Origin: Crambe crambe
Lineage: Eukaryota; Porifera; Demospongiae; Poecilosclerida; Crambeidae
Length of the DNA: 64,000 bases
Direction: 5' to 3'
NCBI GenBank assembly: GCA_963924555.1
Contig: OZ004581.1
Span: forward strand, 6,673,338-6,737,337
This document shows, one piece after another, positions 4,010 through 47,510 of this stretch; position 1 is the stretch's first letter; every line of letters begins with the position of its first letter. The notes beneath the pieces are model-generated. The model did not search any database, had not been told where the DNA came from, and saw only the letters and a program-made list of their open reading frames with translations. A program made the translations under genes and the position numbers.

Positions 4010-4545
4010 CTAATGAATTACCAGTTTGAAGCAGCCTAGTTGACTGGTCTTGATCTGGACATAGTCCAAGTGCATTTGATAGGCAGACTTGTGGAACCTG
4101 TTCCTCTTTACAGGGAGCTGAATGTGTCCAATCGTGTTCATGACCTCTGTCCACTCGCTACTGTCCTTGGAGGCACGTCCAAGCATCTGAAGGTGCCAGG
4201 AATTGTTCTGGTATGGCAAACTGTGTGGCATGGGAATCACTACTGGACAGGACAGGGGAACAGTGGAAGGACTGAGCACAATCATTGGACTGAGCTATAC
4301 TTTCTCTGTAGACTTTGATTTCTTCGCTATAAGGAATGTGTCTTCCTCTTTTGATAGATCATAAACATCTTGCACAACTTCGAACCAGATTTTCTGAGAT
4401 TGTCTGCGAGGGATTGAGTTTTCAGGTCATCTCTATGGTGACACCACTCCTTTCTTTTGTTAGCTTTCCACCTTTGTGTGTGCATGAAGAACCCCACGCC
4501 ATTGCTGAAGATGTTGGAGGTTGAAGGTCGTTTCTTGGCAGGCAT
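4010..4545 (-). pseudogene. Possible decayed HMG-box-like gene fragment
   Basis: Two neighbouring minus-strand open segments (4545-4327 and 4285-4010) look more protein-like than their surroundings. The first starts MPAKKRP and continues with NGVGFFMHTQRWK, SLADNLRKSG and KMFMIYQKRK. This loosely resembles an HMG box as found at the N-terminus of Maelstrom-type proteins, but the diagnostic central tryptophan is absent and the frame closes after 72 codons. The second contains SSEWTEVMNTIGHIQLP and no motif I recognise. No clean splice links them. It could equally be chance coding potential. Confidence 0.2.
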
Positions 4546-6691: not shown

Positions 6692-9600
6692 ATGGCTACT
6701 TTGGAAAGTCGTAAACGTGGACATAAGGAGCTGTTTGAAAAGTATTGTATGGACATGTATCTGAAGAAAACCTCAAAAATTACCAGCAAAACAATTGGCA
6801 AAGAGAAGGCAGAGAGCATTAAGCAGGTCCTCAGAGGAGAAGGGAAACATCCTCCATCCTTCAAATTCTGGGTGAAAATGAACAAGAAGTTCAAATTGAT
6901 CAGCTATCCAGAACTACAACTAGCTAATGTGCTCTGTCTCCCTTCAAAAAAGAAGGTACACTAAAGTGCAGAGTAAAGATAATGACCAATAAGCCTCTAG
7001 CTATGCACATTAATTTTAATAGAATGAAAATGACCCCACATTCTTCAGTGACCATCGGATAGTAGCCATCGTTGAAAACTTTTATGATATACTGGAGCGT
7101 ATTCATTCACTGGAGAATTCCCATATTGGATATCGGAAGACTTTGGCAGAAGTAAGATTTAAATTTATTTCATAATAATAATTACTGCATTGTCTATATT
7201 ATAATGTAGGTGCAAAAGACATACGAATGTTTGCCACGACCAGCTGTGCAATATTTTTGTAATACCTGTCCTGTTTGTCAGCAAAAGGAGCCACAAACTA
7301 ATAATGCTCCTCTGAAGCCTATTATAGCATCTGGTTTTCTCACTCGATGTCAGGTATATATATATATATATGTATGTATAACCTACTGTACCATAGAAAC
7401 TTACACTTATGCTATTAGATTGACCTCATCGATATGCGACATATGGCAGATGACTCATATAGCTATATAGCACATTACATGGATCACTGGTCTAAGTTTC
7501 ATATCTTATGGCCACTAATGAAGAAATCAGCAGTAGAAGTATCCATGGGGCTTATTACCAGAGTTTTTCCTTACATTGGGCTCCCCAAAATACTCCAATC
7601 TGACAACGGCCGAGAGTTCGTGAATGAGACCATTAAGGAGACCCTCAGATTATGGCCCGGTGAAGTGACAATCATAAATGGACGACCACGACACTCTCAG
7701 TCCCAGGGGTTGGTTGAAAAAGGAAATCACCTCGTGGAAATGCAGCTTCAAGCAATGAAGCATGAGTGGAAAGACTCAGGAAGTGTTCCTTGGGCTGACT
7801 GGTTACCTCGGATTCAATGTGAGTATTAATGTGTGTGATACAATACAAACTTCATAATTTGGTATATACTATTAGATAACTTGAACACTCAAGTATGCCG
7901 TACACTTAATAAGAGCCCATATGAAGTAGTGTTTGGGCAGCCACCAAGATCAACACCATTCCCTCAACTACCTTCACAAATGGGTGACAGCATAATGGAA
8001 GAGGATATCTTTGACCTCATCAGTAAAACTTGTAAGCATATCACTCTACAATTTACATTCTTCCTTATAATTATGTAGAAAGTGAATCTCCTAGCCATAA
8101 CTCATCAGTCTCTCCCAGCCGACACTTGCCAGTCTCTCCCAGTCGACACTCGTCAGTCTCTCCCAGTCGACACTCGTCAGTCTCTCCCAGCCGACACTCG
8201 TCAGTCTCTCCCAGCCGACACTCGTCAGTCTCTCCCAGCCGACACTCGTCAGTCACTCCCAGCCGACACTCGTCAGTCTCTCCCAGCCGACACTCGTCAG
8301 TCTCTCCCAGCCGACACTCGTCAGTCTCTCCCAGCCGACACTCGCCAGTCTCTCCCAGCCAACACTTTTTACTGGCTGGTAGCCACCAATTACCATCAAT
8401 TCCGTCTCCTGGTTCAAAACCATCTCCCACACATATTGTTGAAGCATTGCAGGAAGTAAGTTGTGATGATTTGGTCCAAAAGGTTTCTGATATCCTTCCT
8501 TCCTTACATATCACTGGAGAGGTAAGATCTGCAATTGCAAATTATTATAATATCACTTAGTTTAATTGTTCTAGGTTCAATCTGAGTTCATGATGGCTAC
8601 TTGCAAGAAGCGAAGTAAGTATAATGTGTATATTGCTTAAAAGCCAGTGATTCTGGACCCATTAATCCATAATCACACAAGTGATCTATGAATTTATGGC
8701 ACATTCAAAAATATAGATCAGATGAAGAATGCCAGCAACAGGATAATGTGTACTACTATTCTGCAACATGAAGCAATAGTTAACTTCCTTGTATCTAAGA
8801 TTTGTGGGGAAAAAAGCAGCATGGAGGTAAGAATTATTTGCCATAATAATTATATATATTTTTCAGCTCAATTCATAATGCAGCTAGTGTCTTTTTGTTT
8901 CGATTTTGTGTATCCCAAAGTTATGTGTCTGCTTATTATGGAAATGTTTAATCTTAACAGAGAAGAGGTGAGGGTAATTAGTATTATCATAGTTAATTAC
9001 ACTATCTTCAGGCAGAACATGTTATGTACACCAAGAAAGTTAATCCCTGCCTACTTAAAGATACTTCATCGGGCACTGAAACAGGTTTGCATAATTATAG
9101 CTAATAACTGTTACGACTAATAATACTATACTGAAGATACTTCTGGCCATAATTTACCATCACCTAAGAGTTCCTCGTCTGCTCTAACTACAAGTAAACG
9201 GCATCGACAAGTACGTCTGGAAGCTGACAAATGTTATCGCAGTAATGCTGAAAAAATGAAGTTGCAATATGCTAAGCGGAAACAGCACTTCATCAAAACT
9301 TATATTTCTGGAGATGCTGTTACGGTACACATTCCTCGAAATGAGCGTTCCTGTTCAGATATGCCCCGATTACTGTGCCGTGTTATAGAAGTGAAAAGAA
9401 AAAACCTTTATCGTCTACAGTAAGTATTAAAACCTGTATCACTCAAAATGTGTGCAGTCCTTATATGAGCCAATAGATGATAAGTTAGTGGATTCATACA
9501 GTAGCCTGGTATAGCTACCATGCTCCTAAAGAATTCCACATCTGGTTTGACCAGACTAGACCAGCCAGACTCTGCAAAGTGTAGTGCACAAACTGTATTT

Positions 9601-10679
9601 ATCGATTATTACTCTATCAATTTTATAGGTGTGAGCATGGAATTCTATCTACATGTTATCCTGGTAGTGAGCTAATGCCATATCAAGGATCTCTCCAATT
9701 TCCTAGCATTAGTAAAGATAGCACCCACATCCCCACTATATCTTTAAGAGCAGCTTCATTGAAGACTAAGAGAGACAAGATAAAGTGTAATTGTACAAGT
9801 ACGTGTAGAAGGGGGAGGTGTTCTTGCAGATTAGCTGGACAGGAATGTTCCAGCCATTGCCATCCGAAGAATTCATCTTGTTTAAATAAAGATCTTGTGC
9901 TGATGAAGGTTGAACATTCAGTAAATAAGAAAAGTGTTAAAAGCAGTGAAGTGAAATCAAAAAAACGCAGAAAAATTGTACCCAAATCCCTCAGTATCAC
10001 TGAGGAAATTCAAACTAATTGCTGTCTACAGGACAGTCATATTGAAGCTGCAAACCGATTTTTAAAGAATCAGTTTCGAAGCCAAGCTGGATTGTATAAT
10101 CCTGTACATGGACAAGATTTTTCTTTCCCTATAACCAGGGATGCTTTCATACAAATTCTTCTTGTTGGAGGGAATCACTGGGTTACTGTTGCTGGTGTTT
10201 CGTCCTCACTAGTGCATATATATGACAGTGTATATAATCATGTACATGATGATGTAAAGATCCAGGTGGCTGCGCTGATGCTTTCTGATGAACCTGTAGT
10301 GACCTTTAAACTTCACAAAGTGCAATTTCAAAAAGGTTCTCGTGATTGTGGACTGTATGCTGTGGCATATGCAACTGATCTGGCATATGGTAACGACCCT
10401 TCTAGTTATCGGTACAAGCAAGAAAAGCTAAGGTCACACTTTATCGATTGTATAAAGAAAGAAATATTAACACCTTTCCCTCGGGATATAGCAATAACAG
10501 GGAAGCCAAGTTTAGAGAATGTGCCTATTTACTGTTCTTGCCGGCTTCCTGACAATGGGGAGGAGAGGATGGTTCGGTGCAGTCGATGTGGTGAATGGTA
10601 TCACCAGTCATGTGAAAGAATACCTCCGAAAGTATTCCAAAAGTCCGATGTACTATGGGAGTGTAGTAAATGTATTTAA
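6692..10679 (+). CDS. Ginger transposase: integrase, Cys-rich motif, Ulp1-like protease, PHD finger
   Basis: Exons: 6692-6955, 7023-7151, 7210-7353, 7419-7818, 7876-8031, about 8108-8521, 8575-8614, 8717-8826, 9012-9084, 9137-9419, 9629-10679. The N-terminus precedes a zinc-binding H2C2-like segment (CNTCPVCQQKE). The integrase core follows, with probable catalytic D184 (IDLIDM), D241 (QSDNGREF) and E279 (QGLVEKGN), then a linker of SPSRHSSV repeats. A GPY/F-like segment lies around VTVHIPRNERS, and a run of Cys pairs (KCNCTSTCRRGRCSC). The Ulp1-like domain has NHWVTVAG (His), YDSVY (Asp) and SRDCGLYAVAYA (Cys). The C-terminal PHD finger is YCSCRLP...CSRCGEWYHQSC...CSKC. The entry into the linker exon is uncertain: the first AG after intron 5 makes a stop, while AG at 8106-8107 restores frame. 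Otherwise no stop or frameshift. Confidence 0.88.
8106..8369 (+). repeat. 24-bp coding minisatellite, 11 units
   Basis: Eleven head-to-tail 24-bp units (CAGTCTCTCCCAGCCGACAC plus TCGT) encode the eight-residue repeat SPSRHSSV inside the Ginger transposase linker. Units differ by one or two substitutions. Each contains CAG followed by TCTCTCCC, hence a possible splice acceptor. All three frames of the array stay open because 24 is divisible by three. Confidence 0.95.
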
Positions 10680-12655: not shown

Positions 12656-15600
12656 TTATTTTTTTTTGCTTGACCTCGCTCTTTTCCTCAGTGGGGTATC
12701 ATCAATAACTTCTTTTCCAGAGAAGAGACGACGTTTCCTGCTGCAGTTTCCTCTCACAGGTTGGAGTGCTGCGGAACCTTGTACTCGGATACTCTGTGCT
12801 GCTGTAAGACAAGCACTAGCAGTAGGGTTGTCGCAACGAGATCCTTGGGCTCTTTGGTGGCTAAAATAGTTCTCAAGGGGGTCTTGGGTAAACCTTTCAC
12901 TCAGCAGGTACTGTCCACTGATCCCTGGAAGTCTAAGGAGTAGTCTGGTCACTTCCACAAATGATTTCACTACACAAAAACAAGAGAAGAAATATTCGCA
13001 AAACTACCTAGAGTACTCTGAACACAAGAGCCCTCTGATGCATCCTGATAATCTGTATTAACCAGCAACACCTTAAAACAGCAGGTCCCAACATGTCCTT
13101 TGTTCATAAGTTCCACTTAGTAAAAGTATTCTATTTAGCGCACCCCATTATGTACCACCATGTGTATTGTGGCCACATTTGAAAATTCTTTATGGTGCAC
13201 ACCTGTCATTCTGAGACCTTCTCGGGTTTCTCTGCTAAGAAGCATCATAGCCTTTTCTCCTGGTGTAAAACCCTCTCGAGCCCACACAGACTCTTCCCAG
13301 TGATCCAAGTAGCCAAGGAAGTCTCTCTCCAACCACTGCATTAAAAATTAAGTGCTAATCACCACTTGCAATTCTCACTAATGTGGTGCCTGCTACAAAA
13401 CATTTTTATATTCAGATCACAGCAAAAGATATGGGCTTGTTCTCTTTGAGATCTCAGATCAATGACCAGACAAAGCATGCATATCCTGATTAGGGAACTA
13501 TTGTACCTTCAGCCTGGCATCGTCAGGACTCTTGAACACTTCCTGATTAGGTTTCCTCTTGGTTGCTGCTTCCTTGATAGAACGGACATTGACACAGTCA
13601 AAAAACTTGTCAAAAATTCTTATAAATTTCTCAGTTTCCTTGGTTCCTGACCATCCATAGCTAATAGTTCAGTCCATTGGCCACTGATTCACTCAAGGCC
13701 TGTGTTGCACATTGAACAACAGTAACCAATTTCAACAAACAATGAAGAAGTAGTACCTGAGCGGCAAGATCCACCCTCATCCGAGAAAAAGACGTTAGCT
13801 CAATATGGTCACGAGATAGTTTCGTAAGCAGCTTCAATCCACTTGAACTAGAAGCCATTCCAACTTGAGCATCATAGAGCTCAGTGAGGTGTAACCAAGA
13901 TATCTCTTCGCCATCAATCTACATAACAAACCATAGCTTAGTCTATGCACACTTGGACACAACCTATAATCTGGACACCTCCTTTGTACATATTGAGGCC
14001 ACTTCAAAAGTCCTTTATTTACCCCTGAAAAGAATTGGCCACCCCTCTATAACCATGGCAATTGATAAATCCGAGATTAGGGGATCAGAAACACAAGGCC
14101 CACCAAACTTGTGTGAAGTGGAAATCTCCTAAGGTGTGGTTGGTACTCCGCTTTTTCTAACCAATGGGTTAGTCTGCTACATTGACCTTACCCACAGATG
14201 CCTTGTCTTTCCGTGTGCCCCACTGTGAGACCAACAATTTCTTGCCGTTTTGAGGAGGTGAGGCGGGTCAGACATAAAATATATATATCGATCTTCACTG
14301 TAAGGATTTTTAGTCTTGTAAGAGCCATGTAGACTAAAAAATTTCCTGTTGGGAGAGGCACCATCTGCGGTAATGACTATCACCTTAAACCCCAAGAACT
14401 CCAAACGTTCCACAGCTTCCCACATAATAGGAAACAATGTAGCTCCAGACAGTTTGTGAGTCGGAAAATGGGCGTATGGATACTCAAATTTCATGAAGAT
14501 TCCACGTACCATCAGGACCAGCATGTGCGAGGCAATTGGGGGTGTATTGCATGATTCCTCAAATTGAACCAGCTGATTGTTGAATGACCCCAGGTCCACA
14601 AATCCAATAACTTTCGTGCCTATTTTGTCATACACCAAAGATTCTTTGATTTTCATTTCATCTATTAACAAAACGATATACTTCTTATACTCAGGCAGTT
14701 CTTTAATGTTAGCCTCTTTAGCAAGGTCATCATCGATGTCATCCTGGAATCCCGAGCGTGACTTGACGTAGTGCGTATAATCGCGTAACGTATGCTCTGA
14801 CGGTAACTTAACAAATCCTGACGTCCTGAGAGCATGGTAGCATGATGTCGAAAGAAGCTTCAAATTGAGGCACCAGCGCACCATCATCGGATGCCACTTC
14901 ATGTTCTTAGCACAAGATACACGTGATGCTTTAAATTGTTGCTCCCAGAAGAGACGCTGGAAACTCCCTTCCGGAAATTTTGCTAGAACAGATGAGGAAC
15001 TATCCTTCATGATGGAACTTAAATCATTGTGGAGATCAGAATCAACTGTTATGCCCTTAGCTTCTGTAGAATTTTTGATTTTCTCATTCAACAACTGGAG
15101 TTCCCTTTCAGCAGACAGTGCCCGAGCTTGCAGACGAGCCAACTTTTTAGCCTTTTGTGGTGTGGTTAAGTAGCGATTATTACTGAACTTCTTCGGAGAC
15201 TGAGACTTTTTCTGCCACCTGCTATACATGGATCTCAATGATGATCGAAATTTTTTACATGAAAGGCATGGCCCACTTGAAACCAAAATACTGCAGCCTG
15301 TTGTTCGTATTGTACGATCATACTCCACACCATCATACTTAATCTTGCAGTTTGCATCTTCATATGCTGTAATTTTTTTGTCAACCGAGAAAAACTTCCC
15401 CTTCCTCACATCACACAAAGAAAGGAACTGTTTATCAGGATTTCCTGGGCAAAGACGACAGGAGTCAAATGTCTCAAGGAGTCGCTGAAGAGACACATGA
15501 TCAATAATATTAGGGAAAGAGTTGAAAGGAGGAAGAGATTTAACTTCATGACCGTAGAAAAAGCAGGTCCACGTTAAGTCGTGATCAATTATTAAAGAAT

Positions 15601-15847
15601 GTGTAACTGAAGTACAAGGATCATCGGAAAGTTTACACAATCGTATTTTCTCCAGTTTTGTTTGATCAACCCATCCATTGTTAAATTCATGCATAGACAT
15701 GAACAAATGAAGGTCCTGTAGTGTTATGGGTACCAATGCAGATGGTACTGGTACAGGTGGGGATAGTACGGACAGAGATGGTACAGATTCGGATGTGGAG
15801 GATGCGGAGGATGCTGAACCAGAGGCTGGCGGGTCAGGAGACGCAAC
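12656..15847 (-). pseudogene. P-element / THAP9-like transposase, frameshifted
   Basis: RNase-H-fold transposase of the P superfamily. Minus-strand exons: 15847-14192, 13918-13757, 13699-13507, 13335-13203, 12969-12656. Family marks are IVLLIDEMKIKESLVYD (first catalytic Asp), ITADGASPNRKFF, YFMSDPPHLLKTARNCW and the C-terminal LSERFTQDPLENYFSHQRAQ. The first exon opens with a Ser/Pro-rich stretch, followed by Cys-rich and coiled-coil segments. Upstream exons, and any THAP zinc finger, are not resolved between 15850 and 16750. In the third exon the frame breaks between GLNY and GWSGTKETEKF at about 13656-13668, where a TAG is also met; one base is gained or lost. Without that lesion the transposase would look complete from its catalytic core onward. 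Confidence 0.85.
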
Positions 15848-24392: not shown

Positions 24393-25930
24393 AGACTCTA
24401 TACAGTGAGCCATTCTGGCACGCAGTTATTAATATATATAGCGACGCAGTTAATAATATAGACTATAATATTGCGAGCCATTCTGGCACGCAGTTATTAA
24501 TATAGACTCTATACAGCGAGCCATTCTGGCATGCAGTTATTAATATAGTCTCTATATAGCGAGCCATTCTGGCACGCAGTTATTAATAGACTCTATAAAG
24601 CGAGCCATTCTGGTATGCAGTTATTAATATAGATTCTATATTGTGAGCCATTCTGGCATGCAATTATTATTATAGACTCTATTATAGTGAGCCATTTTGG
24701 CACGCAGTTATTAATATAGACTCTATAGGGCGAGCCATTCTGGCATGCAGTTATTAATATAGTCTCTATATAGCGAGCCATTCTGGCACACAGTTATTAA
24801 TAGACTCTATACAGCGAGCCATTCTGGCACACAGTTATTAATATAGATTCTATATTGTGAGCCATTCTGGCATGCAGTTATTAATAGTCTCTATACAGTG
24901 AGCCATTCTGGCACACAGTTATTAATATAGACTCCATACAGTGAGCCATTCTGGCATGCAGTTAGCCATTCTGGCATGCAGTTATTATTATAGACTCTAT
25001 TATAGCGAGCCATTCTGGCATGCAGTTATTAATATAGTCTCTATATAGTGAGCCATTCTGGCATGCAGTTATTAATATAGACTCTATACAGCGAGCCATT
25101 CTGGCATGCAGTTATTAATATAGTCTCTATATAGTGAGCCATTCTGGTACGCAGTTATTAATATAGACTCTATACAGCGAGCCATTCTGGCACGCAGTTA
25201 TTATAGTCTCTATATCACTGTAAAAACGAAATGGTGAACATCACTACATTGTAGTGATGTTCGAGCCATTCTGGCATGCATTTATTAAATTACAGACTCT
25301 ATACAGCGAGCCATTCTGGCACGCAGTATTATAGTCTCTATATAGCGAGCCATTCTTACACACAGTTACTCTATTCAGCGAGCCATTCTGGCATGCACTT
25401 ATAAATATAGACTCTATAGTAGTGAGCTATTCTGGCACGCAGTATTATAGTCTCTATATAGCGAGCCATTCTGGCACACAATTATAGACTCTATAGGGCG
25501 AGCCATTCTGGCATGCAGTTATTAATATAGATTTTATACAGCGAGCCATTCTGGCACGCAGTTATTAATAAAGACTCTATACAGCGAGCCATTCTGGCAC
25601 GCAGTTATTAATATAGTCTGTCTCTATATAGCGAGCCATTCTGGCACGCAGTTATTAATATAAACTCTATTCAGCGAGCCATTCTGACATGCACTTATAA
25701 ATATAGACTCTATAGTAGTGAGCTATTCTGGCACGCAGTATTATAGTCTCTATATAGCGAGCCATTCTGGCACACAACTATAGACTCTATAGGGCGAGCC
25801 ATTCTGGCATGCAGTTATTAATATAGATTTTATACAGCGAGCCATTCTGGCATGCAGTTATTATTATAGACTCTATTATAGTGAGCCATTCTGGCATGCA
25901 GTAGACTCTATTATAGTGAGCTTTCTGACA
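24393..25930 (+). repeat. Left arm satellite array, about 43-bp units
   Basis: Tandem units with the core GAGCCATTCTGGCAYGCAGT. Spacer parts vary in length (43-60 bp) through indels in the TATTAATATAGACTCTATA part. A truncated hairpin MITE interrupts it at 25216-25261. Confidence 0.95.
25216..25261. mobile_element. Truncated copy of the 124-bp hairpin MITE
   Basis: Starts CACTGTAAAAACGAAATGGT as at 30479, runs to ACATTGTAGTGATGTTC, then returns to satellite. It appears to be the outer arm joined to part of the complementary arm with the middle lost. Confidence 0.75.
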
Positions 25931-27244: not shown

Positions 27245-30200
27245 GATGGTAATAATAAATGCGTGCCAGAATGGCTGACTAGCTATATAGAGTCTATAAT
27301 AATTGCATGCCCGAAAGGCTCACTATTATAGTGTCTGTAATAATAACTGTGTGCCACAATGGCTCACATAACTATAGCTACGTAGTCTTGAAAAGCTCAC
27401 ATAACTATAGCTAGACTTAATAGAGTTTACAATAATATCTGCATGCCAAAATGGCTCATTATTATAGAGTCTACATACGTATAACTGCATGCCAGAATGG
27501 CTCCCTACTGTATATAGAGTCTATAATAATAACTGCATGCCAGAATGGCTCATTATATAGAGTCTATATTAATTACTGCATGCCAGAATGGCTCATTATA
27601 TAGAGTCTATATTAAAATTGCGTGCCAGAATGGCTCACTATATAGAGTCTATATTAATAACTGTGCCAGAATGGCTCGCTGTATAGAGTCTATATTAATA
27701 ACTGTGTGCCAGAATGGCTCATTGTATAGTCTATATTAATAACTGCGTGCCAGAATTGCTCGCTGTATAGAGTCTATTAATAACTGCATGCCAGAATGGC
27801 TCACTATTATAGAGTCTACATACGTATAACTGCGTGCCAGAATGGCTCCCTATATAGAGTCTATAATAATAACTGCATGCCAGAATGGCTCGTTATATAG
27901 AGTCTATATTAATAACTGCATGCCAGAATGGCTCCCTATATAGAGTCTATAATAATAACTGCATGCCAGAATGGCTCGTTATATAGAGTCTATATTAATA
28001 ACTGCATGCCAGAATGGCTCCCTATGTAGAGTCTATAATAATAACTGCATGCCAGAATGGCTCGTTATATAGAGTCTATATTAATAACTGCATGCCAGAA
28101 TGGCTCCCTATGTAGAGTCTATAATAATAACTGCATGCCAGAATGGCTCGTTATATAGAGTCTATATTAATAACTGCGTGCCAGAATGGCTCCCTATATA
28201 GAGTCTATAATAATAACTGCATGCCAGAATGGCTCGTTATATAGAGTCTATATTAATAACTGCATGCCAGAATGGCTCGTTATATAGAGTCTATATTAAT
28301 AACTGTGTGCCAGAATGGCTCGTTATATAGAGTCTATGTTAATAACTGTATGCCAGAATGGCTCGTTATATAGAGTCTATATTAAAATTGCGTGCCAGAA
28401 TGGCTCACTATATAGAGTCTATATTAATAACTGTGCCAGAATGGCTCGCTGTATAGAGTCTATATTAATAACTGTGTGCCAGAATGGCTCATTGTATAGA
28501 GTCTATATTAATAACTGCGTGCCAGAATTGCTCGCTGTATAGAGTCTATTAATAACTGCATGCCAGAATGGCTCACTATTATAGAGTCTACATACGTATA
28601 ACTGCGTGCCAGAATGGCTCCCTATATAGAGTCTATAATAATAACTGCATGCCAGAATGGCTCGCTGTATAGAGTCTATTAATAACTGCATGCCAGAATG
28701 GCTCACTATTATAGAGTCTACATACGTATAACTGCGTGCCAGAATGGCTCCCTATATAGAGTCTATAATAATAACTGCATGCCAGAATGGCTCCCTATAT
28801 AGAGTCTATAATAATAACTGCATGCCAGAATGGCTCGTTATATAGAGTCTATATTAATAACTGCATGCCAGAATGGCTCCCTATATAGAGTCTATAATAA
28901 TAACTGCATGCCAGAATGGCTCGTTATATAGAGTCTATATTAATAACTGCATGCCAGAATGGCTCGTTATATAGAGTCTATATTAATAACTGTGTGCCAG
29001 AATGGCTCGCTGTATAGAGTCTATATTAATAACTGGGTGCCAGAATTGCTCGCTGTATAGAGTCTATTAATAACTGCATGCCAGAATGGCTCACAATATA
29101 GAATTGATATTAATAACTCTGTGCCAGAATGGCTCACAATATAGAATCTATATTAATAACTGCATGCCAGAATGGCTCACTATATATATATAATAGAGTT
29201 TATAATAATAACTGCATGCCAGAATGGCTCGCTATAATATAGAGTCTATATTAATAACTGTGTGCCAGAATGGCTCACTACTATAGAGTCCATATTAATG
29301 ACTGCATGCCAGAATGGCTCACAATATAGAATCTATATTAATAACTGCATGCCAGAATGGCTCGCTATAATATAGAGTCTATATTAATAACTGTGTGCCA
29401 GAATGACTCGCTGTATAGAGACTATTAATAACTACATGCCAGAATGGCTCACAATATAGAATCTATATTAATAACTGCATGCCAGAATGGCTCGCTATAA
29501 TATAGAGTCTATATTAATAACTGCGTGCCAGAATGGTTCACTGTATAGAATCTATATTAATAACTGCATGCCAGAATGGCTCGCCCTATAGAGTCTATAA
29601 CTGCATGCCAGAATGGCTCGCTGTATAGAGTCTATATAGATAACTGCGTGCCAGAATGGCTCGCTCTATAGAATCTATATTAATAACTGCATGCCAGAAT
29701 GGCTCGCCCTATAGAGTCTATATTAATAACTGCGTGCCAGAATGGCTCACTATAATAGAGTCTATAATAATAACTGCATGCCAGAATGGCTCACACTATA
29801 GAATCTATATTAATAACTGCATGCCAGAATGGCTCGCTGTATAGAGTCTATTAATAACTGCATGCCAGAATGGCTCGCCCTATAGAGTCTATATTAATAA
29901 CTGCATGCCAGAATGGCTCACTATAATAGAGTCTATAATAATAACTGCATGCCAGAATGGCTCGCTCTATAGAATCTATATTAATAACTGCATGCCAGAA
30001 TGGCTCGCTGTATAGACTATATTAATAACTGCATGCCAGAATGGCTCACTATAATAGAGTCTATAATAATAACTGCATGCCAGAATGGCTCACTATAATA
30101 GAGTCTATAATAATAACTGCATGCCAGAATGGCTCGCTGTATAGAGTCTTTATTAATAACTGCATGCCAGAATGGCTTGCTTTATAAAATCTATATTAAT

Positions 30201-30478
30201 AACTGCATGCCAGAATGGCTCGCCCTATAGAGTCTATAATTGTGTGCCAGAATGGCTCGCTATATAGAGACTATAATACTGCATGCCAGAATAGCTCACT
30301 ACTATAGAGTCTATATTTATAAGTGCATGCCAGAATGGCTCGCTGAATAGAGTTTATATTAATAACTGTGTGCCAGAATGGCTCGCTATATAGAGACTAT
30401 AATACTGCGTGCCAGAATGGCTCGCTGTATAGAGTCTATGATTTAATAAATGCATGCCAGAATGGCTCGCTATTATAT

Positions 30479-30602
30479 CACTGTAAAAACGAAATGGTGA
30501 ACATCACTACAATGTAGTGACTCCTGTGGCATCACCATGGTTATGGTGATGCCACAGGAGTCACTACATTGTAGTGATGTTCACCATTTCGTTTTTACAG
30601 TG
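30479..30602. mobile_element. 124-bp near-perfect hairpin MITE inside the satellite
   Basis: Ends CACTGTAAAAACG and CGTTTTTACAGTG; the arms pair along almost their full length around a centre at ACCATGGTTATGGT. No coding capacity. The target duplication is unclear in the AT-rich satellite; TA is possible. Confidence 0.85.
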
Positions 30603-31626
30603 TAGAGACTATAATAACTGCATGCCAGAATGGCTCGCTGTATAGAGTCTATATTAATAACTGCGTGCCAGAATGGCTCGCTGTATAGAGTCTATATTAA
30701 TAACTGCATGCCAGAATGGCTCACTATATAGAGACTATATTAATAACTGCGTGCCAGAATGGCTCGCTATAATAGAGTCTATAATAATAACTGCATGCCA
30801 GAATGGCTAACTGCATGCCAGAATGGCTCACTGTATGGAGTCTATATTAATAACTGCATGCCAGAATGGCTCACAATATAGAATCTATATTAATAACTGT
30901 GTACCAGAATGGCTCGCTGTATAGAGTCTATTAATAACTGTGTGCCAGAATGGCTCGCTATATAGAGACTATATTAATAACTGCGTGCCAGAATGGCTCG
31001 CTGTATAGAATCCATATTAATAACTGCATGCCAGAATGGCTCGCCCTATAGAGTCTATAACTGCGTGCCAGAATGGCTCGCTGTATAGAGTCTATATTAA
31101 TAACTGCATGCCAGAATGGCTCGCTCTATAGAATCTATATTAATAACTGCATGCCAGAATGGCTCGCCCTATAGAGTCTATATTAATAACTGCGTGCCAG
31201 AATGGCTCACTATAATAGTCTATAATAATAATTGCATGCCAGAATGGCTCACAATATAGAATCTATATTAATAACTGCATGCCAGAATGGCTCGCTGTAT
31301 AGAGTCTATTAATAACTGCGTGCCAGAATGGCTCGCTATATAGAGACTATATTAATAACTGCATGCCAGAATGGCTCGCTGTATAGAGTCTATATTAATA
31401 ACTGCGTGCCAGAATGGCTCGCAATATTATAGTCTATATTATTAACTGCGTCGCTATATAGAGTCTATATTAATAACTGCATGCCAGAATGGCTCGCTGT
31501 ATAGAGTCTATATTAATAACTGCGTGCCAGAATGGCTCGCAATATTATAGTCTATATTATTAACTGCATCGCTATATAGAGTCTATATTAATAACTGCGT
31601 GCCAGAATGGCTCGCTGTATAGAGTC

Positions 31627-32057
31627 CATAGTTGCCAACCGTCCCGATTTGGCCGGGACACTCACGATATTATACCTCTTGTCCCGGTCCCGCCCGACAT
31701 AGTGCTTTAACAATGACTTGTCCCGACAGATAGAGCTACAAGGTAGTCTCGCAGGCCAAGGAAAGAATCAAGTCGCAGTAGTTACTTCAGCTGTAGCATT
31801 ATTACGCTCAGCACCATCATGTGATCTGAAGTTATAAACAAATGATGAAATCCAGCGTGGCCAGTGTGAGATCTCTCGGTTTTGCTTAGATCTACTTACA
31901 TAGTTAATTACCTAGTTCTTACAACCTGCATCTTTTACTTACTACATCTTAGTTTAATACCGAGGTCAAGTTTAATCAAAATGGGTGTGTTTAATAGAAA
32001 GTGGGCGTGGTCTAGAAAATTGTCCCTATATTCTATTTCCAGAAGTTGGCAACTATG
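31627..32057. mobile_element. 431-bp non-autonomous TIR element with 6-bp duplication
   Basis: Ends CATAGTTGCCAAC and GTTGGCAACTATG, flanked by AGAGTC on both sides (31621-31626 and 32058-32063). It interrupts a satellite unit cleanly. No open frame of note. The superfamily is not assigned. Confidence 0.8.
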
Positions 32058-32644: not shown

Positions 32645-33331
32645 CAGCAGTTGATGTCACAGACAGCTGGCCAGTCTCAGAGAATGCAGACCAGAGATTA
32701 TTTTCAGAAAGAGAGGCCATTCTCATTGTTTCACCCTTGCTAAAAGGGAACATGCATCACATTCAGCTCAGGCTCGCCCCACAATGCATTGCATTTGTCT
32801 AGTAATTGAATTTCTATACAGCATCACTTCTGACTGTATCACATCAACTCCTGTGGTTTTTCCAAGATCAAAATAATGACATAATGGCTTATACTATGCC
32901 GCCCGCCCGCATCAGTCTGAGCAACTGCACGTGAAAAGGGGAAAGTCATTCAGCCTGCAGTGTGAAATAATGTCACACTGATCCGTCCCTCTTTACTTCT
33001 CTCTATTTATTACACAGGTGCACATGTCTGCATCCTTCTCAATATAATTATCAGTCTGTAAGGCCACTATTGGTTGATCATATAAAGTTTCTCATTAGAT
33101 AGTTGGTATCACTCAATGCTTATCATGTTGTCTAATCTCTTCACTTAAACATCATGCTTTCTTAAACCATTCACTCATTAATTTTGAGACCATTTCAGCT
33201 AACTCGAGATTCAATTCATGTGAAGAATTAGAAACCACTTGCATCCTGCGCATGCGTAGTGAATTATAACCTTTGAACCCACAGACTTTTGGATCATTTT
33301 ATCAGGTAAGAAATATTTACTGGATCACATC
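32645..33331. other. Non-coding, upstream of the microexon-array gene
   Basis: No gene supported. ATCAG followed by GTAAGAAAT at about 33301-33312 resembles a 5' splice site just before the ATG at 33332 and could close a non-coding first exon, but no matching acceptor is obvious before the ATG. Confidence 0.35.
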
Positions 33332-36300
33332 ATGAGTGATAAAAAAGGTGAAGAGAATGAAGAAGCAGAGAAGAAGGATACTTCTAGCAGAGCTGAACCA
33401 TATTTTGTGAGTGTATTCACATGAAAAAGGTAACTAGGGACTAGGGTGTGACACAAGCTCATTTAGTTGGGGAGTATTGATTATAGAGGGTGTACCAATA
33501 CAACCCACCACTGGTAATGACTTGGAAGCTCATTCCTTCCTCACCTGAAGTGCAGCTTGCGCTGTACTGCAGTGTACCTATGTGGCCCATGGGTACGTAC
33601 GTACGGGTACTGGGTGGGGCCAATTCTCACTTGTCAACCCTTTACCAAAAAAGGAAGGAAGTTTCAAGATTGTGTCTGGAATGTCTATTGATTAGAAAGT
33701 GTTGAATTATGTTATGATCATGACCTTTAGTTAGTATGTGTATCAATGTTTTCTTTCAGGAGGTGAGTCATTCAAGACTGACAACTTTCAGCACTATCAC
33801 TTATATGCTGTCTATTCTCTTACCCTGTCGTACCTTCACTGTCATATTTTGATGCTTAATTTCATTCCTTCAGTTGGTAAGTTATTCTGAATAAACTCAC
33901 TCTCTGCATTGTTACTTACATGCTGTCTATTCTCTTACCCTGTCGTATTTTGATGCCTTCAGCCGGTAAGTTATTCTGAACCAACTCACACTCTACATTG
34001 TTACTCACATGCTGTCTATTCTCTTACTCTGTCATACTGTCACTGATGCTTAATTTATTCCTTCAGCGGGTAAGTTATTCTGAATAAACTCACTCTCTGC
34101 ATTTTGTTACTTACATGCTGTCTGTTCTCTTACTCTGTCGTACCTTCACTGACATATTTTGATGATTTCTTCAGTCGGTAAGTTATTCTGAACGTACTCA
34201 CTCTCTGCATTGTTACTTACATGCTGTCTATTTTCTTACCCTGTTGTACCTTCACTGTCGAATTTTGATGATTCCTTCAGTTTGTAAGTTACTCTGAACG
34301 TACTCACTCTCTGCATTGTTACTTACATGCTGTCTATTCTCTTATCCTGTCGTTACTTCACTGTCGTATTCAATGCTTTAATTTCATTCCTTCAATTGGT
34401 AAGTTATTCTGAACGTACTCACTCTCTGCATGGCTACTTACATGCTGTCTATTCTCTTACCTTGTCGTACCTTCACTGTCGTATTTTGATGCTTAATTTC
34501 ATTCCTTCAGCCAGTAAGTTATTCTGAACTGACTCACTCTTTATACATTGTTACTTACATGCTGTCTATTTTCTTACCCTGTTGTACCTTCACTGTCGTA
34601 TTTTGATGATTCCTTCAGTTTGTAAGTTACTCTGAACGTACTCACTCTCTGCATTGTTACTTACATGCTGTCTATTCTCTTATCCTGTCATTACTTCACT
34701 GTCGTATTCGATGCTTTAATTTCATTCCTTCAGTTGGTAAGTTATTCTGAACGTACTCACTCTCTGCATGGTTACTTACATGCTGTCTATTCTCTTACCC
34801 TGTCGTACCTTCACTGTCGTATTTTGATGCTTAATTTCATTCCTTCAGCCAGTAAGTTATTCTGAACCGACTCACTCTCTGCATTGTTACTTACATGCTG
34901 TCTATTCTCTTACTCTGTCGTACCTTCACTGACATATTTTGATGATTTCTTCAGTCGGTAAGTTATTCTGAACGTACTCACTCTCTGCATGGTTACTTAC
35001 ATGCTGTCTATTCTCTTACCCTGTCGTATCTTCACTGTTATATTTTGATGCTTAATTTAATTCCTTCAGCTGGTAAGTTATTTAGAACTGACTCACTCTC
35101 TGCATTGTTACTTACATGCTGTCTATTTTCTTACCCTGTCTTACCTTCACTGTTGTATTTTGATGCTTAATTTCATTCCTTCAGTCGGTGAGTTGTTCTG
35201 AATGTACTCACTCTCTGCATTGTTACATACATGCTGTCTATTCTCCTACCCTGTCTTACCTTCACTGTTGTATTTTGATGCTCAATTTCATTCCTTCAGG
35301 ATGTAAGTTATTCAAAACGTACTCACTCTCTGCATTGTTACTTACATGCTGTCTATTTTCTTACTCTGTTGTACATTCACTGTCATCTTTTGATGCTTAA
35401 TTTAATTCCTTCAGCTGGTAAGTTATTTAGAACTGACTCACTCTCTGCATTGTTACTTACATGCTGTCTATTCTCTTATCCTGTCGTACCTTCACTGTCA
35501 TATTTGCTTAATTTCATTCCTTCAGATAGTAAGTTATTCAGAACTGACTCACTCTCTGCATTGTTACTTACATGTTGTTTATTCTCTTACCCTGTCGTAC
35601 CTTCACCGTCGTATTTCGATGCTTAATTTTATTCCTTCAGAAAGTAAGTTATTCTGAACATACTCACTCTCTTCATTGTTACTTACATGCTGTCTATTCT
35701 CTTACCCTGTCGTACCTTCACTGTCGTATTTTCATTCCTTCAGGAGGCAAGTTATTCTGAACGTACTCACTCTCTGCATTGTAACTTACATGCTGTCTAT
35801 TCTCTTACCCTGTCGTATCTTCACTGTTATATTTTGATGCTTAATTTAATTCCTTCAGCTGGTAAGTTATTTAGAACTGACTCACTCTCTGCATTGTTAC
35901 TTACATGCTGTCTATTTTCTTACCCTGTCTTGCCTTCACTGTTGTATTTTGATGCTTAATTTCATTCCTTCAGTCGGTGAGTTGTTCTGAATGTACTCAC
36001 TCTCTGCATTGTTACATACATGCTGTCTATTCTCCTACCCTGTCTTACCTTCACTGTTGTATTTTGATGCTCAATTTCATTCCTTCAGGATGTAAGTTAT
36101 TCAAAACGTACTCACTTTCTGCGTTGTTACTTACATGCTGTCTATTTTCTTACTCTGTTGTACATTCACTGTCATCTTTTGATGCTTAATTTTATTCCTT
36201 CAGTTGGTAAGTTATTTAGAACTGACTCACTCTCTGCATTGTTACTTACATGCTGTCTATTCTCTTACCCTATCGTACCTTCACTGTCATATTTGCTTAA

Positions 36301-36940
36301 TTTCATTCCTTCAGATAGTAAGTTATTCAGAACTGACTCACTCTCTGCATTGTTACTTACATGTTGTTTATTCTCTTACCCTGTCGTACCTTCACCGTCG
36401 TATTTCGATGCTTAATTTTATTCCTTCAGAAAGTAAGTTATTCTGAATATACTCACTCTCTTCATTGTTACTTACATGCTGTCTATTCTCTTACCCTGTC
36501 GTACCTTCACTGTCGTATTTTCATTCCTTAGGAGGCAAGTTATTCTGAACGTACTCACTCTCTGCATTGTAACTTACATGCTGTCTATTCTCTTACCCTG
36601 TCGTACCTTCACTGTCGTATTTTGATGCTTAATTTCATATCTTCAGGAGGTAAGTTATTCTGAACGTACTCACTCTCTGCATTGTTACTTACATGCTGTC
36701 TATTCTCTTACCCTGCCGTACCTTCACTGTCGTATTTTGATGCTTAATTTCATTCCTTCAGGAGGTAAGTTATTCTGAACGTACTCACTCTCTGCATTGT
36801 TACTTACATGCTGTCTATTCTCTTACCCTGTCGTCGTATTTTGATGCTTAATTTCATCCTTCAGCGAGTAAGTTATTCTTAACTGACTCACTCTCTGCAT
36901 TGTTACTTACATGCTGTCTGTACAGGTAGAATCTACATAA
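33332..36940 (+). CDS. Putative small gene with an array of single-codon microexons
   Basis: Hypothetical gene, no family recognised. Exon 33332-33406 encodes a charged 25-residue start (MSDKKGEENEEAEKKD, then TSSRAEPYF) and stops in phase 0 at TTT followed by GTGAGT. Downstream, 29 repeats each carry a pyrimidine tract ending CAG, one triplet, then GTAAGT or close variants. A last acceptor (CTGTACAG, 36918-36925) opens a phase-0 end, Val-Glu-Ser-Thr then TAA at 36938. So each repeat, if spliced in, adds one codon, and none of the 29 triplets is a stop. Introns between them would be about 112 nt. The alternative is one 3.5-kb intron holding a minisatellite that merely mimics splice sites. Acidic/lysine-rich content suggests a disordered peptide. 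Existence of the gene is inference; the signal pattern is seen directly. Confidence 0.35.
33750..36925 (+). repeat. 115-bp minisatellite, 29 units with acceptor-triplet-donor cores
   Basis: Triplets start at 33760, 33874, 33963, 34067, 34175, 34281, 34396, 34511, 34619, 34734, 34849, 34955, 35070, 35185, 35300, 35415, 35526, 35641, 35744, 35859, 35974, 36089, 36204, 36315, 36430, 36532, 36647, 36762 and 36865. In order: GAG, TTG, CCG, CGG, TCG, TTT, TTG, CCA, TTT, TTG, CCA, TCG, CTG, TCG, GAT, CTG, ATA, AAA, GAG, CTG, TCG, GAT, TTG, ATA, AAA, GAG, GAG, GAG, CGA. Commonest period 115 bp. Unit 7 has lost its acceptor (CAA); units 19 and 26 have GC donors. Units 13-19 are duplicated as 20-26 (789-bp offset) and 6-8 as 9-11 (338-bp offset). 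The first unit is the most diverged. Confidence 0.95.
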
Positions 36941-39126
36941 GGCTACACAGTGTGCAAAGTGTGCCGGTCCAGGGGCATTTTCTTCTTCAGACCAAGTAGC
37001 AGTGCATAGAAACCTGTAGGATCTGTGGCTATTTTCAAGAAATTGGATTTGGTGGTATTAATGTGATGAAATTGTGGTATACATGAGACCATGTAAACCC
37101 AGTGACAATGCGAGCCTCTTCAGAGATTGGCAACCATTTTGTATTGATGGCAGCCAGGAACTAGATTACGTACCTGGTGGCCATTTTTAAATTGACAGCC
37201 ACAGCTAATGCAGGCACCTTTGCAGGTGCCCCAATATCTGAAAATGTTCACAATACATCAAAGTACATGTATACAAAGTTTGGTGCTTTTATCAAAAAGT
37301 GAACGATTTTTGTCTATGCTGCCCCACTAAATCTGAAATGTAAAAACATGTTAACTAACACACTACCCTGTACATGTGGAAGGGAGAAATAGATTGGGGG
37401 GAGCTCACTCTTCCACTCTTTGGCTAGAGCACTACCCTCCCCTTTGTGCCCACATATTATGATTCCAGAGCAACTCTTTCAACAGACATGCATGCATTGT
37501 TCGATCATTACGGTTACTGAATTAGTATAGTGGAATATATACATTCCCTAATCTTTTATTGCCTAAACCCCCACTGCTTGCATTCATCCTGGGAGGGGGT
37601 ACAAAGTTGGTATGCCAAAAGTGTTTGACACTAGTGGGTGGGGGATTGGAATTATAAAAAATTCGTATTAGCTTAGGGCTTAGGAACTTTGCAATTGATA
37701 GCAAACTTATGCAGCTCAGCATTCCCCCAGTATACTAAATGCAGGGTGGGCCACGGATATAGAACTTCAAAGAAAGTGGGCTGTGTCTATGGCACTTATA
37801 TACTTATACTTAAGCACCCTGTTTGAAAGTACAGCTAACTCTTCACCTATAGCCTATAGGCTGACAGGATCAAGCACCTCACATTAAGTGCAAAAAAAAC
37901 AACAGGTTAACAATCTCATTAAAATTCCTTCACACCTTGAACTTACTTGTGGTTGCATGTCCGGCCATAATACTACCTATGGTCCGGCCGTAATTGTTTC
38001 CTGTGGGCGTGGTTCATAGTGAAACTGACGTGTGCGAAACTAGTAGCTACACAAAAGGCGTCATAATAGACCGTTCTACTCCACTGAACAACTTAAGGTA
38101 AGCCTATATACGTTCAGTTAATAGCTATGAATGCTGCAGCCTCATATCAAAATAATCAACCCACTGCTATAGGCAGCTGGCAAGCAAGTATTCTTTAGTG
38201 CTACAACTCTTTAGAAGATTTTGCTGTTTAGTTTATATATGTGTCAGATAAGCTAAAGTAAGTGAGCATGATAGGCTCCAGTGCTTGATATTGCGTCAGA
38301 GACAAGAAGTCATGTAAGTGGTGGTTCCAACCAGAAAGCTCCATGCATCAAAAGCTGTAAAAATCACAAGCACTTAGATAAGCCAAGCGCCTACAATTCA
38401 CTTTGATAAGCCTAGCGTCTCTATGACAAAAGCTGTAGAAAACAGGCTTCTCCATTAGCATCTCTATTGGATTTAGTCCTTCATGTTTGGGGTATTCACC
38501 AGCAATATTGTTCCTTCGAGCGTGGAATCAGGTAAAAATAGGGTTGTAGATCGTAGTTTTTGCCTGAGCTATACATTGAGCTATAAATACTTGCAGCAAA
38601 CTCTGGTGTTGAAGGTACAGGTCGGACTCTTGTATATTGACCAGCTCAGGCATGGCTGAAACTCTCACCCCTCGGTCTTGTGAGCCTCCAAGCAAGAGAC
38701 ACAGACCCCAGAACACTGCAAAGTGCTTCAGCCATACATGGAGATCAGCTAGTGCATGTAGTACTAGTATAGTAATTGCATTCCTGACATTTTTATGACG
38801 ACCTTTTCCTAATTGCTGAAGCTCGCGCGATAGCATGTCCTACCCCCCTGGTAGAAAACAATCTAGCTTGCATAATTGAGTACAATTATTGGAGCATGTG
38901 TATTATGTACATGCAGGCGCTACAATACACGGACACTTACGTACCCGTACGCATGGGAGTGTAGATCTAGATATTTTACAATTTCAATGAGTCATGACCT
39001 GAGAGTTAGCTCGCTCGCTGCAATTATCAAAAAATTGGTCTGGACTGGCCTTAATAGAGGTACACCCCTGAAGATGTGCTTCATTCATTAATTTCTGTAT
39101 TACTGTTGCAGATTGCAAGATTGACC
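36941..39126. other. Intergenic; partial copy of beta-lactamase 3' flank
   Basis: 37350-37625 matches the sequence downstream of the complete beta-lactamase-like gene (56358-56680) and partly 41000-41110, for example GGGAGAAATAGAT and CACTCTTCCACTCTTTGGCT. It is thus a third copy of that flank. A 102-codon minus-strand frame at 38836-38528 has no recognisable features. A likely non-coding exon and intron precede 39111 (acceptor TACTGTTGCAG). Confidence 0.55.
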
Positions 39127-46455: not shown

Positions 46456-47199
46456 ATATAACTGTGCCTTTTTCTTATTAGACACTGCCAAAATTGAACA
46501 AGTGGACCAAGAGAGGACATTCAATTACATGTATAAATGTGACGGTACGTAGAACAATAATAACAAACTTCAAAAACTACTCCACCAAAAATAACACAGA
46601 CCCACACATGACTATTAACATAATAATCATTGTATAGTTGGAAATTTTTGTGGGGTGAAATTTTTATAGGGGTAAAGTTCATAATGATTCTTGTGCAATA
46701 CTTCTTTAAGACCAACACAAAAAAAATCATACCCCATGAAAATATTTAATTCTTATCTGCAGTATGATTCCCTACCTGTGTGTCAGAGGAACCATCTGTA
46801 CTGAAGGCCAGCGTCATCAACTTTGCAAGGTCAGCAGCACTGGAATACGTTTGCCCTGCAGAAGCATCCCAACCAACGTCTATCATATCAGCCTCTGATC
46901 CATCAGGATAATACCCCACTGCCATCCTGTCCATGACTGAGCTATTGAAGGAGTTTCCAGTGTTCTGCATACCAAGTGGCTTTATGATCATCTTTGTGAC
47001 TAAGTCATCCCAAGATGGAGAGTCCATTATTTTGACTAAGACCTGTAGCAATTGACGCAAAATCATAACATACAGTGGAGGGTTCTTCCCTGGACAGTGG
47101 CCATTTTGGCAATCACTCGTTATACTTAGCTGCAGTAATTTTAAGCTTCCACTACACATCACTTTTATTATCCAAAGGAAATGGGTGTGGTTATTGAAA

Positions 47200-47510
47200 T
47201 TGAATTGCTGTGGTTCTTGAGTTTGGTGATGGGTAATAAGGGGTTACTTATTGCAGAAGGGGGAGTGAAGTAGGGATTTAAGTTGGGTGATATAGGTGTG
47301 GTTATTGAAATTAGGAGGCCTAGGAATTGCTGTGGTTCTTGAGTTTGATGATGGGTATGGTAGGGTAGGGGGTTACTTCATGACTCGCTTGTTGCAGAAG
47401 GGGGAGTAAAGTAGGGATTTAAGTTGGGTGATATAGTGAAATTAGGAGGGCTAGGAGTGATAGCTATCTCTATATTTCACTTTTTATTTAGAAGAAATTT
47501 GCACCCATTA
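47200..47510 (+). mobile_element. Degenerate MITE body copies
   Basis: Two tandem pieces similar to 17880-18100: TTCTTGAGTTTGGTGATGGG, GGGGGAGTGAAGTAGGGATT and TTTATTTAGAAGAAATTTGC. The partner in the other duplicate (59000-59215) holds one piece, so one internal duplication happened after, or was lost after, the segmental duplication. Confidence 0.7.

Follow-up and report, generated by a model that had tools for sequence, protein, structure and literature searches.

The candidate one-codon exon array in the window

The window analysed here is a stretch of 64,000 nucleotides from the sponge Crambe crambe (C1:6673338-6737337, in a genome of 143 Mb and 119 contigs). Between positions 33332 and 36919 its forward strand contains a short coding exon followed by a tandem array of 29 candidate exons, each of which would comprise a single codon. 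This copy most probably belongs, in truncated form, to a large family of genes whose hypervariable N-terminal segment would be encoded one codon per exon.

The first coding exon (33332..33406, plus strand, 75 nt) encodes MSDKKGEENEEAEKKDTSSRAEPYF. A sequence-only reading of this DNA had supposed an in-phase first exon here; the exon is open, ends in phase 0 at the donor GTGAGT at 33407 and recurs across the family. The first one-codon exon, GAG for Glu (33760..33762, plus strand), lies between the acceptor TTTCTTTCAG and the donor GTGAGTC, and a corresponding GAG exon is also present in 11 of the 13 other array regions described below. It is followed on the plus strand by 28 more one-codon exons (33874..36867). 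Named by residue and first base these are, in order, L33874, P33963, R34067, S34175, F34281, L34396, P34511, F34619, L34734, P34849, S34955, L35070, S35185, D35300, L35415, I35526, K35641, E35744, L35859, S35974, D36089, L36204, I36315, K36430, E36532, E36647, E36762 and R36865. Translated in order the window triplets give E LPRSFLPFLPSLSDLIKELSDLIKEEER, and the earlier observation that no stop codon occurs among them (0/29) is correct.

Tandem Repeats Finder reports the array at a period of 115. The sequence-only reading had placed an acceptor, three bases and a donor in each of the 29 units. The spacing and the donors stand, as three bases separate the acceptor position from a GTAAGT, GTGAGT or GCAAGT donor in 29/29 units. 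The acceptors were overstated, since only 28 of the 29 have CAG or TAG; the unit at 34396..34398 (plus strand) has CAA in place of CAG. Two donors are of the GC type, both of them GCAAGT on the plus strand, one at 35747..35752 after the GAG at 35744-35746 and the other at 36535 after the GAG at 36532-36534. The final recognisable stretch of array intron (36868..36919, plus strand) is cut off at 36919.

Family size and the three-base spacing

Wnt matches in the genome (14 stretches, as opposed to 0 of 14 control genomes) show that it is that of an animal. A 460-base piece of the array has at least 242 matches in it (18 of 116 candidates scored), and those listed outside the window all lie on the minus strand of C1 at 8.19-9.25 Mb. 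The DNA of the first exon (33240-33425) matches 43 stretches including itself, all of them on C1 and 40 on the minus strand at 8.16-9.37 Mb. A further first exon, MSDKKDEENEETEKKSTSSRAEPYF, with a longer one-codon array is found on C1 upstream of the window, on the plus strand from C1:6636312 to at least 6652252. Its first 6 kb (L049, C1:6636200-6642200) contain 49 units, 47 of them with a triplet; E, R and K are frequent among the residues encoded.

Genome-wide there are 3,168 instances of the exact motif YYTTCAG-NNN-GTAAGTYATT (244 forward and 2,924 reverse) and none of its reversed control. With a four-base spacer the same motif is found once in the genome versus three times in the reversed control, and with a spacer of two or six bases not at all (0 and 0 genome-wide). 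A looser pattern, which omits most of the common units, has 259 matches versus 52 in the control.

The unit statistics are based on the window and on 20 fetched stretches that span 13 further array regions (14 regions). Units were found by a profile search, for which 27 of the 29 window units had supplied the profile. Twelve of the 994 profile matches were dropped as cut or site-less, and in all of the 982 alignable units exactly 3 nt separate the acceptor from the donor. The donors of these units are GT (975), GC (4) or other (3), the acceptors CAG (916), TAG (55), AAG (6), CAA (3) or an AG next to a gap (2). A broken AG or GT is found in six units (6/982), including the window unit at 34396. 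All six belong to the seven regions without a complete gene copy (6/426), and none occurs among the 556 aligned units of the seven complete copies. The lengths of the 963 introns vary around a median of 112, with 112, 101, 103 and 111 being the commonest.

When the 14 regions were scanned without a model for acceptors and donors separated by 0-24 nt, 915 pairs were found at 3 nt and 18 at other distances (19, 24, 10 and 9 nt). Not one of these 18 is inside an array. Twelve mark where a first exon or a first-exon-like stretch ends, and one, in G8776, is a first exon situated between two arrays. The 3-nt spacing of the array units is not due to chance.

Coding signal in the triplets

Among the 113 columns of the unit the three triplet columns are the first, second and fourth most variable, with entropies of 1.90, 1.90 and 1.37 bits, while the splice sites on both sides are conserved at 100 and 99.7% (AG) and at 99.8 and 99.5% (GT). 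The other columns above 1 bit are 15 (1.34), 35 (1.01) and the pair 78 (1.65) and 79 (1.27), a variable intron dinucleotide about 17 bases past the triplet (gaacNNactcac) in an otherwise homogenised unit.

Forty codon types are used. No stop codon is found in 982 triplets, versus 127.7 expected under column independence, and none among the 640 distinct sequences, versus 84.0 expected. The same holds for representatives whose 100-nt flanks are more than 5, 10 or 15 bases apart (203, 108 and 78 units), with no stops versus shuffle means of 25.8, 13.3 and 10.8; the fewest stops seen in 5,000 shuffles were 12, 5 and 4. TAA was expected 33 times and TGA 10.4 times, and neither was seen. The triplet CAG is depleted as well (1 seen, 52 expected), while GAG (145 seen, 52 expected) and AAG (34 seen, 28 expected) are not avoided. 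Avoidance of tandem acceptors does not explain the absence of TAA and TGA.

Codon usage in the triplets was compared with that in the Roc-COR exons described below. Gln is encoded by CAA 32 times and by CAG once in the triplets, versus 154 and 107 times in the Roc-COR exons, a bias that avoidance of CAG|CAG tandem acceptors would be expected to cause. Ser is encoded by TCG 131 times and by TCA 40 times in the triplets versus 5 and 76 times in the Roc-COR exons, and a third base C is found in 0.4% versus 19.6% of the codons. For Lys codon usage there is no difference between the two sets. These biases fit exons in which every base also serves a splice site.

Recursive splicing has to be considered at this point. 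Known recursive sites are zero-nucleotide sites, where the acceptor is directly followed by a donor. The immediate succession of acceptor and donor in each unit, together with the tandem acceptors that GAG and AAG triplets create and by which the codon could be skipped, would suit units which are stepping stones for the removal of a long intron, their 3-nt spacer being absent from the mRNA. Such a spacer, however, need not avoid stop codons (0/982, and likewise in the clustered test) nor measure exactly 3 nt, and it would not contain the most variable columns of the unit. In contrast to zero-nucleotide sites all 982 alignable units have 3 nt between the two splice sites, and 130 and 136 modelled units in single genes seem beyond what an intron would need. 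We therefore regard stepping stones as very improbable.

Gene structure and the Roc-COR GTPase

All parts of a gene were found in seven of the 13 regions outside the window, and in all seven they join in frame. These complete copies consist, in this order, of the first exon (75 or 78 nt), the GAG exon, 21-136 modelled one-codon exons, a last one-codon exon GTG or ATG, a 22-nt exon and a long exon. The number of one-codon exons per complete copy is 23-138, the arrays are in phase 0, and all seven have D as their first modelled codon. The shortest complete gene, with 21 modelled units, is located on C1 at about 9.02 Mb. The 22-nt exon leads from phase 0 to phase 1, and the frame of the long exon is open over 672-711 codons. 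In 11 of the 14 regions a first exon could be identified. Its length of 60, 75 or 78 nt is divisible by three in every case; in G9233 its donor is altered. The first exon of the complete copies (MSDKK...AEPYF) is charged. Read by eye it has no hydrophobic core, and no signal-peptide-like stretch was seen.

The long exons of two members match the Pfam domains Roc and COR-A above the cut-off (for the first of them COR-A 1.7e-15 and Roc 4.9e-9), and for the first member the PDB also gives matches to chains of LRRK2 and of bacterial Roco proteins. The two GTPase exons scanned have neither a leucine-rich repeat match nor a kinase match. A Death domain is present in a 41%-identical relative (P0088), and Pfam does not list one for P0004, P0016 and P0048. 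The exon joining and the Pfam and PDB matches thus predict a Roc-COR GTPase whose N-terminal segment would come from single-codon exons. The central proposal of the sequence-only reading, a frame-keeping array of one-codon microexons, thus gains strong support from the spacing in the family, the lack of stops, the intact splice sites and the in-frame join to the GTPase.

The probable truncation of the window copy at its 3' end

The proposed terminal exon is a different matter. The reading had ended the array with a phase-0 acceptor and a near stop (36926-36940) and predicted a short peptide with the C-terminus VEST. The sequence joined to the array (36920..38577, plus strand) consists from 36920 to about 37330 of a dispersed repeat, which contains positions 36926-36940 with VEST and the stop. 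The VEST exon is wrong, because it lies within this repeat and because the window copy lacks the GTPase to which the complete relatives lead.

The repeat from 36920 has 27 matching stretches including itself on six contigs. One of them (L038, C1:6751359, 41 kb off) matches 36920-38179 at 98% and 38180-38577 at 93%, while six other copies match only as far as about 37330. Four copies of the same orientation share upstream sequence, which is not array, and thus the array was joined inside a repeat copy. The join at 36920 has the appearance of a breakpoint left by a rearrangement. A search of the window for Roc-COR sequence found none (best match E 0.07), and none of the other 13 regions, two of which run off the stretch read, has an ending like that of the window array. 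The window copy has the GAG exon and lacks the D exon. It is probably a relic, which lost its GTPase end by a rearrangement into the repeat. Two other regions, G9233 (C1 at about 9.243 Mb) and G8776 (C1 at about 8.787 Mb), also look truncated, with no Roc-COR exon in the stretch read.

Relatives elsewhere in the genome

In a Roc-COR protein search of the genome 69 matches were listed (63 of 465 candidates scored), so the following numbers are lower bounds. The cluster on C1 has at least 23 near-full-length matches of 78-100% identity, of which two are each split into two pieces. A second cluster is located on C11, with main matches at 40-47% (about 44% identical). Single matches are found on C20 (43%) and C46 (38%) and a 48% piece on C5, and more distant matches at 24-27% lie on C3, C5 and C12.

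Upstream of one C11 gene (L048, 45% identical protein) there are 44 consecutive 3-nt units, DDNDYDSPSRDDDRDYVDSWDEDNEHDWDEDRSREDRSHLHIHP, in which the third base is mostly T and no stop occurs. Another C11 gene (L045, 43% identical protein) is preceded by 13-15 units, the number varying with the search, which are GCT-rich and also without a stop, and has a possible first exon MAEKIA. The intron sequences of both C11 arrays differ from those of C1. In the C20 gene (L047, C20:3825400-3830250) two of 13 acceptor-donor pairs enclose just 3 nt (CCT and TGG, at about 4225-4335) among exons of ordinary size; such a gene with two single-codon exon candidates possibly represents the ancestral state. 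No 3-nt unit was found in the 4.85 kb read upstream of the C3 gene (L046, C3:7508000-7512850). The series formed by C11, C20 and C3 is what tandem duplication of a single 3-nt microexon would be expected to leave. A tandem 204-bp repeat is located upstream of the C3 gene (1293-2763 of L046). One unit pattern has no match in the viral contigs; unit patterns do match elsewhere in the genome and viral contig collections, but no confirmed Roc-COR relative was found there.

A tandem repeat with a period of 115 bp, which in the window is not even accompanied by a GTPase exon, might also be viewed as a non-coding satellite with splice-like motifs by happenstance. A neutral satellite, however, would not hold AG and GT at above 99% while varying most between them, would neither avoid stop codons nor follow a conserved first exon, and would not recur with different introns beside a 43-45%-identical paralogue. 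This explanation is hardly credible.

Evolution of codons and introns

In the recent duplicates G8189 and G8338, 17 of 12,651 intron bases and 11 of 348 triplet bases differ over 116 aligned units. Some of these 11 differences adjoin unit gaps and may be misaligned; the changes N to D and W to L lie within identical introns. In three other pairs the introns differ by 2-4% and the triplets by 26-39%, in an intron-only alignment with unsure synteny. Among 1,010 pairs of units with identical 100-nt flanks the triplet differs in 394, in 133 of them at all three bases. Only 22 of the 189 identical-flank groups have more than one triplet. Long duplicated blocks are interrupted by a single-codon difference, one example being TTG/AAG within 916 identical bases. 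The codons seem to change faster than the introns, and often as whole codons.

Both the 394 differing pairs, with 133 altered at all three bases, and the duplicated blocks which differ by one codon could be taken as signs of a targeted process, such as mutation or conversion focused on the triplet, beyond ordinary mutation and selection. On the other hand, few of the identical-flank groups have more than one triplet, the pairs are not independent, and the same pattern would result from homogenisation of introns combined with codon selection, or from short conversion tracts. A targeted process is thus quite unlikely; selection and intron homogenisation are enough to explain the faster change of the codons.

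Proposed mechanism

An exon of 3 nt is too small for definition by bridging factors. Recognition would therefore occur across the introns, which are short (about 112 nt) and tandemly duplicated, and step by step. Each CAG acceptor would be joined, the GTAAGT three bases further on would act as the next donor, and one residue would be added per splicing step. Because each step adds exactly one codon, the frame would be kept whichever units are used. Unequal exchange or conversion between the intron repeats would add, remove and shuffle single residues in frame, and the introns would be homogenised while the codons diversify. The sequence ACTTAC, the complement of the donor GTAAGT, is present in 840 of the 963 introns of the C1 arrays and resembles the 5' end of the U1 snRNA. 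RNA folding of one 143-nt stretch of the window revealed no special structure (z 0.18).

Several points weigh against this interpretation. The inclusion of even one triplet is an inference from sequence. The stretches read cover a minor part of the 1.2-Mb cluster, and the complete copies were selected for having all parts; of the six other regions outside the window four were partly read and two (G8776 and G9233) have no GTPase exon in the stretch read. Four of the dropped units are located inside complete copies (one in G8257, three in G9077), where acceptor, triplet and donor are missing together. Eleven of the 14 regions, the window not being among them, carry between the GAG exon and the next unit a conserved donor-like CTG|GTAAGT without an AG upstream, which the model leaves unexplained; it is perhaps a dead unit or part of an unrecognised exon. 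Regarding the stop codons, column independence is a crude null, as seen from GAA (1 seen, 20 expected) and GAG (145 seen, 52 expected), and counts from units related by duplication are not independent, which the clustered tests address. The absence of TAG could reflect the avoidance of tandem acceptors (CAGTAG), yet GAG and AAG, which also create acceptors, are not avoided.

A protein database search gave 407 matches from 8,000 scored candidates, of which 120 were listed; those listed at 39-57% identity are from other assemblies. The 120 of the 407 that were listed cover the Roc-COR exon and not the one-codon part, with at most 85% of the query. Standard annotation may miss one-codon arrays, as the listed database proteins extend over the GTPase exon but leave out the array.

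The order of the residues was also looked at. A helical periodicity was not detected beyond shuffles (Stouffer z -0.23) in 13 of 16 peptides after repeats had been collapsed (G9233, the window and L045 were too short), with single z values from -2.49 to 2.65. There is therefore no sign here that the residues must be joined in order. This suits the view that the triplets are real exons of which variable subsets are included, so that one gene would yield very many N-terminal sequences, and so do the preservation of the frame by every subset and the near-identical splice sites of the units. The two recent duplicates, however, retain most codons in order over 116 aligned units, as would be expected for a fixed product, and the long strings of strong, constitutive-looking sites bear no sign of regulation. 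Subset inclusion is thus possible, although on the unlikely side; if true, each gene would have an enormous tail repertoire. A rather improbable extension is that dozens of Roc-COR GTPases, with a hypervariable N-terminus from one-codon exons, variable subsets per transcript and codons renewed as cassettes faster than the introns, form a system that generates diversity residue by residue and serves the recognition of self or of pathogens.

Should the triplets be spliced in, each residue of the segment would require its own splicing event, and in the seven complete copies the segments would reach 138 residues, which goes well past the microexon genes found in the literature. Such an architecture would bear on how the spliceosome handles exons that are too small for exon definition, and recombination between the introns could edit the protein one residue at a time without a frameshift.

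Other features of the window

Two large arrays of a 43-bp unit are located at 24444-25902 and 27420-31630. The consensus unit of one is nearly the reverse complement of that of the other, and the unit contains the palindrome-like sequences GCCAGAATGGC and TATAGAGTCTATA. Furthermore, three stop-to-stop frames with recognisable domains were found: a PHD finger and an Ulp1-type peptidase (9585-10679, plus strand), a TNP-like RNase H domain (14177-15847, minus strand) and a beta-lactamase-type domain (46746-47243, minus strand).

Comparison with known systems

No array of one-codon exons was found in the open-access literature searched; a subscription paper or a preprint could exist. Single very small exons are known. 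The dog PICALM gene has reportedly been associated with the term "three-nucleotide exon". A 3-bp exon is reported in the mRNA of Drosophila homothorax (PMC7392893), and 1-nt exons in the mRNAs of plant APC11 and VPS55 (PMC8831610). The spliceosome can therefore include exons of 1 and 3 nt. As described there, the tiny exons of homothorax, APC11 and VPS55 are isolated, in contrast to the tandem arrays here.

The GTPase exon of the family resembles Roco proteins in that Roc is followed by COR, although the window copy is without such an exon. The family showed neither leucine-rich repeats nor a kinase in the two exons scanned, and its N-terminal segment would be built from one-codon exons.

In the micro-exon genes (MEGs) of Schistosoma the short exons lie between a first exon and later ordinary exons. 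According to PMC10526429, these genes have 10-20 such exons, introns of 0.1-5 kb and secreted products; the exons range from 6 bp (its abstract gives 3) up to 81 bp, and 15 bp is the usual size. Consecutive very short exons with lengths mostly in multiples of three are common to both systems, and the MEG products are variable and fast-evolving according to the same paper, as the segment described here appears to be by sequence. In contrast to the MEG exons of 6-81 bp given there, all 982 of 982 alignable units comprise 3 nt. Compared with that account the arrays are also larger (23-138 exons), have introns of about 112 nt and are located upstream of a Roc-COR GTPase, and the charged first exon shows no signal-peptide-like hydrophobic stretch.

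Aphid bicycle and megacycle genes also contain many microexons per gene, and PMC9168663 describes their proteins as fast-evolving. According to that paper the roughly 2000 residues of megacycle are spread over more than 100 exons, hence up to about 20 residues each, and almost all bicycle exons are of phase 2. The sponge arrays differ from the genes so described by one residue per exon, by phase 0 and by tandemly duplicated intron units. Neither the MEGs nor the aphid genes have one codon per exon, although an array of this kind could also be viewed as the limiting case of a micro-exon gene.

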